From: Alentia gelatinosa
Lineage: Eukaryota > Annelida > Polychaeta > Phyllodocida > Polynoidae
NCBI GenBank assembly: GCA_950022655.1
Contig: OX465587.1
Coordinates: 33,421,716-33,485,715 of the forward strand
Direction of reading: 5' to 3'
Length of the DNA stretch: 64,000 nucleotides
Below, piece after piece: positions 12,987 through 63,509 of the stretch. The position numbers and the translations under genes were made by a program. The notes beneath the pieces are model-generated. The model ran no database searches. It was not told where the DNA came from and worked only from the letters and a program-made list of their open reading frames with translations. Each line of letters opens with the position of its first letter. Within the stretch, counting starts at the first letter, position 1.

Positions 12987-13075
12987 TTACTTGTTCTCTA
13001 TAAGATCTTGAAGTCGATAGACCAAATCCCTGGAGATTTTGAGGATTTGCTTTGCATTGTGCCTCTCTGCCATTT
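12987..13075 (-). CDS. SGSM1/2: Exon 20: last coding exon, C-terminus and stop
   Basis: Residues 942-970 followed by TAA at 12987-12989. It reads EMAERHNAKQILKISRDLVY then RLQDLIENK, matching the vertebrate ending (EMAERHNxKQxLKxARDLVYKVQxLIENK). The acceptor is tctaacag|AAATGG. The exon must continue as 3' UTR to lower coordinates, but its end is not determined. Confidence 0.96.

Positions 13076-63509: not shown

Follow-up and report, generated by a model that had tools for sequence, protein, structure and literature searches.

Minisatellites at splice junctions in lancelets and related repeats elsewhere

The available text of two reports on amphioxus describes minisatellites spanning a splice junction, which go by the name of mirages, in Adh3 and the globin genes BflGb6 and BflGb9 (PMC3087553), and also in PGBD5 and troponin C (PMC3902484). 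In the accessible parts of both papers these arrays are reported without disturbance of splicing, and length or somatic instability is reported for those of Adh3 and BflGb6 (PMC3087553, PMC3902484). Among the matches listed in the open-licence literature, from which most subscription papers are absent, no mirages are reported outside lancelets; the "Mirage" that figures in the accessible portion of PMC7960049 is a transposon, unrelated to these minisatellites.

The arrays presented here, from the marine annelid scale worm Alentia gelatinosa, are of this known kind in a new phylum, and they extend more widely in the genome than the gene in which they were first noticed. The likeness had been pointed out in an initial annotation made from the letters alone, and it is borne out by the junction-spanning minisatellites described in the available text of PMC3087553 and PMC3902484: as in amphioxus, the Alentia units span the boundary of their own exon and retain the splice signals. 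Unlike the lancelet mirages as they appear in that text, these have an annelid host, come five to one gene and again five to a second, affect both edges of one exon, include up to 23 decoys in an array, and are known from genome sequence. What Alentia does not match is the cephalochordate occurrence, which is a matter of distribution and not a structural feature. COX1 of its mitochondrial contig shows 98% identity with a Phyllodocida record, and among named matches the next are scale worms such as Branchipolynoe at 91-93%.

Three other systems are related in part. Tandem repeats at exon–intron boundaries of recently duplicated human genes affect gene structure, according to the available text of PMC2812944, and share with Alentia that they are minisatellites located at such boundaries; they are described there in paralogues from recent segmental duplications, with altered coding sequence or novel introns. 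The Alentia arrays, in contrast, lie in a conserved gene whose frame is unaltered. Introns are also said to be gained via tandem genomic duplication, in a model attributed to Rogers, where local tandem duplication copies the splice signals as it does in the Alentia arrays; that model yields a new intron, whereas these arrays copy junction halves only. Finally, the accessible part of a report on earthworm metallothionein genes (PMC12783039) describes intronic minisatellites and exon-4 copies that are missing from the transcript. Here the host is likewise an annelid and the arrays likewise lie inside an intron, but units that span a splice junction are not described in that part of PMC12783039.

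Gene model and anatomy of five exon-edge arrays

The window, that is the whole stretch of 64,000 nucleotides analysed (chromosome 9, 33421716-33485715), holds on its (-) strand an SGSM1/2-like RabGAP gene, identified by piecewise alignment of a human SGSM2 protein. Joining 20 exons via splice-consistent edges (Table 1) gives 972 open codons and then one terminal stop, with a median length of 121 nt for the exons and 1149 nt for the introns. Pfam places in the joined exons a partial RUN domain, PH_RBD and RabGAP-TBC, in the order of the SGSM1/2 architecture, and the initial annotation of a Rab-GAP gene with 20 exons in the window is upheld. The RUN match covers positions 66-130 of a profile of 131, and because it starts truncated at position 66 the 5' exons of the gene lie outside the window; the exon originally labelled 1 is consequently not the first of the gene, and we keep E1 only as a name. 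Its start was set at 63515, with an alternative AG that agrees with the 63509 given initially. E14, placed by splice scores and phase only, is the least certain exon; one scan gave no candidate, another gave two other candidates and the last gave 35, of which the best was taken. An RNA-family search found no families.

Table 1. Exons of the SGSM1/2-like gene and the arrays or copies at their edges, as positions within the window.
Feature	Position	Strand	Basis	Remarks
E1	63399..63515	(-)	homology, splice edges, frame	donor-side mirage; not first exon of gene
E1 array	63088..63446	(-)	TRF, display by period	unit 49 bp, donor side, 6 decoy donors
E2	62339..62406	(-)	edges, frame	
E3	61358..61515	(-)	edges, frame	
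E4	56398..56535	(-)	edges, frame	
E5	55353..55483	(-)	homology, edges, frame	acceptor-side mirage
E5 array	55395..56107	(-)	TRF, display by period	unit 135 bp, acceptor side, 4 decoys, AG kept in 2
E6	48716..48783	(-)	edges, frame	
E7	46066..46230	(-)	homology, edges, frame	donor-side mirage
E7 array	44829..46102	(-)	TRF for 45255-46102	unit 160 bp, donor side, 5 decoys
E8	42204..42371	(-)	edges, frame	
E9	36148..36358	(-)	donor picked by frame	
E10	35027..35091	(-)	edges, frame	
E11	32510..32655	(-)	homology, edges, frame	acceptor-side mirage
E11 array	32604..33625	(-)	TRF, display by period	unit 119-121 bp, acceptor side, 9 decoys including one at 34598
E12	32032..32100	(-)	edges, frame	
E13	30841..31504	(-)	edges, frame	
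E14	21292..21371	(-)	splice scores and phase only	best of 35 candidates
E15	20495..20619	(-)	edges, frame	
E16	19354..19436	(-)	edges, frame	
E17	17623..17732	(-)	homology, edges, frame	acceptor-side mirage
E17 array	17705..19042	(-)	TRF, display by period	unit 67 bp, acceptor side, 19 decoys, AG in all
E18	16466..16562	(-)	edges, frame	
Copy of E19 acceptor edge	15804..15858	(-)		single decayed copy, 81% identity
E19	14225..14392	(-)	edges, frame	
E20	12987..13075	(-)	edges, frame	carries stop codon

TRF detects arrays at all five exons for which junction-built repeats had been claimed (E1, E5, E7, E11 and E17), with periods of 49, 135, 160, 121 and 67. Of the unit lengths read initially, 49, 160 and 67 bp stand, 136 has to be corrected to 135 and 120 to 119-121. 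When the arrays are displayed by period, the unit in all five is seen to run from the edge of the adjoining exon across the splice site into the intron beside it, and every array ends within its own exon; the sides had also been called correctly, acceptor for E5, E11 and E17 and donor for E1 and E7. In a comparison of 10 arrays against the 20 exons, each with 30 nt flanks (the arrays at 19111, 19689, 58458, 59325 and 61830 were left out), each of the five matched no exon but its own, and four of the 10 matched none at all. The units are unrelated between arrays, again as first read, the sole cross-match in 45 array pairs being one of 15 nt between two intron 8 arrays. The units of E5, E7, E11 and E17 match only their own locus in a DNA search of the genome in which only top-ranking candidates are scored and very frequent words are passed over, and a dispersed satellite or transposon-borne repeat is rejected for these four, each being confined to its own locus.

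Counted over the arrays together with the decayed copies that prolong them, there are 43 decoys, of which 40 keep their AG or GT, in agreement with the estimate of about forty decoy half-exons. The exon-proximal sites, which the reading frame suggests are those in use, give the 972-codon open frame. Array ages are mixed, with a TRF match of 95% at E17 and 78% at E7, and decayed copies are found past the TRF arrays of E7 (44829-44916) and E11 (34598). For both E5 and E7, similarity to the real edge is greater in the farthest decoy than in nearer ones; at E7 identity with that edge is 93% for the farthest copy and 82-83% for the nearer ones. Downstream of the gene, between 1061 and 12986, there are no TRF arrays of at least 80 bp with a period of at least 15, and the gene holds 15 of them.

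Other arrays in the window were considered and rejected as mirages. The one next to E18 (16103-16430), 35 nt past the donor, consists of a 93-bp repeat dispersed genome-wide, with at least 133 matches across many chromosomes from the best 40 scored of 4068 candidates. The E15 array (19785-20482) begins about 10 nt past the donor with no exon sequence seen by inspection, and its 12 matches, of at most 29 nt and to E15 plus flanks only, are read as intron flank. Two tested intron 8 arrays and the intron 13 array (24787-25372) matched no exon.

A myosin-I gene and a survey of other exons

We surveyed 98 exon matches from five Pfam families, falling into 75 clusters at 60 kb: 8 of 35 matches for TBC, 30 of 70 for myosin head, 30 of 129 for kinesin, 20 of 45 for RhoGAP and 10 of 58 for SNF2 (and 0 of 83 for ABC), with flanks of 1500, 600 or 350 bases. 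The TBC, myosin head and kinesin sets are the best-scoring profile matches, and the RhoGAP and SNF2 picks, mostly high-scoring and mainly one per gene, were chosen before their letters were seen. In the first 88 exons, arrays cover 7.6% of the flank against 0.8% of the exon match. In all, 5 of the 98 exons, from three genes, have arrays of this kind, at 6 junctions together: L019 (both edges), L025 and L032, to which sensitive self-comparison and inspection added two junctions, those of L078 (a RhoGAP gene on chromosome 6, with a 39-bp acceptor unit) and L006 (a TBC gene on chromosome 2, with a decayed donor-side copy). An amphioxus curiosity is carried to another phylum, and the involvement of 3 of about 75 clusters suggests that it is not rare there.

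Several loci were discarded. At L037 the array end counted by TRF is a match overshoot, the array stopping 6 nt outside the exon; at L064 the copy lies within the exon match, and at L060 (kinesin) the acceptor copies are short, decayed and doubtful. Eight others (L100, L063, L053, L046, L005, L044, L047 and L041) have an array close to the exon with no exon sequence seen in it. L002 was dropped as a dispersed repeat extending to the acceptor: an AT-rich repeat (933-1013, 1758-1839, 2282-2363) that ends at a TBC exon acceptor and contains no exon sequence. The 93-bp repeat found next to E18 is also present in L019 (1-677) and L041 (921-1416).

A myosin-I-like gene, one of these three and also on chromosome 9 (61.373-61.400 Mb, scaffolded with a human MYO1D protein), carries mirages at five junctions among six delimited exons: a 164-bp acceptor unit, a 46-bp donor unit with 23 decoys, a 65-bp acceptor unit, and a single exon with an 86-bp acceptor unit on one side and a 51-bp donor unit on the other. 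The occurrence of five arrays at once had been called remarkable, and the SGSM1/2-like gene is indeed an outlier compared to the 6 junctions in the survey, but it is equalled by the myosin-I gene.

Probable origin and tolerance of the arrays

With a probability of roughly 0.7, we consider the five arrays to be mirage-type minisatellites, likely born by ordinary genomic tandem duplication and predicted to be skipped in favour of the copy on the whole exon. Tandem duplication across one junction would leave the real exon intact at one end and place half-exons in the intron; since the unit contains unspliced intron contiguous with the exon, copying appears to have occurred at the DNA level and not via spliced RNA. 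Unequal exchange or slippage would then expand, shrink and partly homogenise the array, and the lengths and mixed ages point to growth by unequal exchange. Under exon definition the splice sites bounding the shortest exon get paired, which here would always be the real pair. The arrays are probably tolerated because a half-exon lacks a splice site at its other end, and the decoys, once ignored by splicing, would drift. It counts for duplication plus tolerance that the structure recurs on the acceptor and donor sides and in three other genes. Tolerance alone, however, does not predict the array excess in two genes, and simple outward growth does not predict the likeness of the farthest E5 and E7 decoys to the real edge, a likeness suggestive of conversion from the exon.

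One alternative, tentative and in our judgement short of even odds, is a mutational process with a preference for exon edges in at least some genes, such as breaks linked to transcription or splicing, or microhomology of the splice consensus seeding duplications across junctions. Unrelated units recur within one gene and again in the myosin-I gene, and both genes show an excess of array ends and of junction-covering units. Under random placement within the SGSM1/2-like gene, 5 array ends fall within exons against 1.70 expected (P 0.026; three variants of the test range from 0.025 to 0.039) and 5 units cover a junction against 0.71 expected (P 0.0008), values that are uncorrected for the gene having been picked in the initial annotation. 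In the contiguous part of the myosin-I gene (five exons, although it may hide further ones) the figures are 4 against 0.69 (P 0.003) and 4 against 0.22 (P 0.0001), the latter becoming about 0.0075 after multiplication by 75, since no other among about 75 clusters is as striking as this gene. Pooling the two genes gives 9 array ends against 2.39 expected (P 0.00045), and no exon swallowed by an array against 3.22 (P 0.022), a lack that is partly trivial because 50-bp repeats could not make up a conserved exon. An edge-favouring process is weakened by finding neither a common motif nor a cause and no excess outside the two genes, and the same excess would result if arrays anchored to a constrained exon simply lived longer. 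Several arrays may have gathered in two genes through a process directed at junctions, through longer persistence of exon-anchored arrays or through a locally high density of arrays.

Pure chance, in which some arrays of a minisatellite-rich genome land on exon edges with no preference, seems to us doubtful, although much of the survey speaks for it. Over the whole survey, one array end inside an exon match is seen in 5 cases against 5.04 expected (effective n=97, as the flanks of L094, which has no array, are shorter than its exon), and no exon lies wholly within an array against 4.35 expected. Once the myosin-I gene is set aside (94 of the 98 exons remaining), array ends number 0 against 3.88, swallowed exons 0 against 2.68 and junction-covering units 1 against 1.10. 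Local copies are also commoner away from exons: a looser self-comparison of the SGSM1/2-like gene finds them at 6 of 39 junctions and at 85 of 300 random intronic points, with unequal criteria in that junctions needed 10 nt of exon and control points none, and in the survey they occur in 61 of 388 random flank windows against 5 of 98 exon matches of equal lengths, which is expected if coding sequence resists arrays. Against chance stand the excesses in the two genes just given, that of the myosin-I gene even after correction. In the survey as a whole, junction-covering units number 5 (L006 excluded) against 1.58 (P 0.023). The initial argument that a process acts at exon edges rather than chance is borne out only in part, with an excess in the SGSM1/2-like and myosin-I genes and none in the rest.

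It is improbable that the arrays are functional, maintained by selection for the tuning of splicing or for alternative exon ends. In 12 arrays from four genes the dinucleotide is intact in 101 of 117 decoys, and its columns diverge less from the real copy than the others (0.066 against 0.153, P 0.04), as a function would have it, but indels may inflate this contrast, exon and intron columns diverge to a similar extent (0.163 against 0.132, Wilcoxon P 0.47), and use of any of the 40 intact decoys in the window would break the frame. In these same 12 arrays there is no preferential loss of decoy dinucleotides, and selection against decoys is not supported either. An assembly artefact is very improbable, since the copies differ from one another, the gene frame is intact and the assembly wpAleGela1.1 is described in the available text of PMC10980856 as built from 31-fold HiFi reads and Hi-C with a QV of 59.4, even if tandem arrays are classic misassembly sites and copy numbers may be inexact.

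If it is true that some genes over-produce junction arrays, this would point to a tie between gene activity or splicing and local duplication, and to a source of new introns. More broadly, and as a speculation that we would not yet favour, exon-edge minisatellites may be widespread, and clustered by gene, in an annelid genome, arising from a process that favours the junctions of particular genes, with thousands of intact decoy half-exons passed over via exon definition and forming, outside chordates, a standing nursery from which introns and exons could arise. An array amounts to an experiment set up by nature: as many as 23 near-identical splice sites follow one another, and a single one of them would be used. 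For this assembly, the same part of PMC10980856 reports polyA RNA-seq, listing ERR11242532, together with an alternate haplotype, and the RNA reads would directly test the choice of the proximal site and exon definition in an annelid.

Minor observations concern other splice sites of the SGSM1/2-like gene. Alternative acceptors of the NAGNAG type are seen at E7 (46230, GGCAGCAG) and at E4 (56535, GTCAGCAG), either choice keeping the frame. A possible cassette exon of 36 nt (40232-40267), with AG and GT borders and phase 1 in and out, directly precedes a 67-bp array at 39641-40167.
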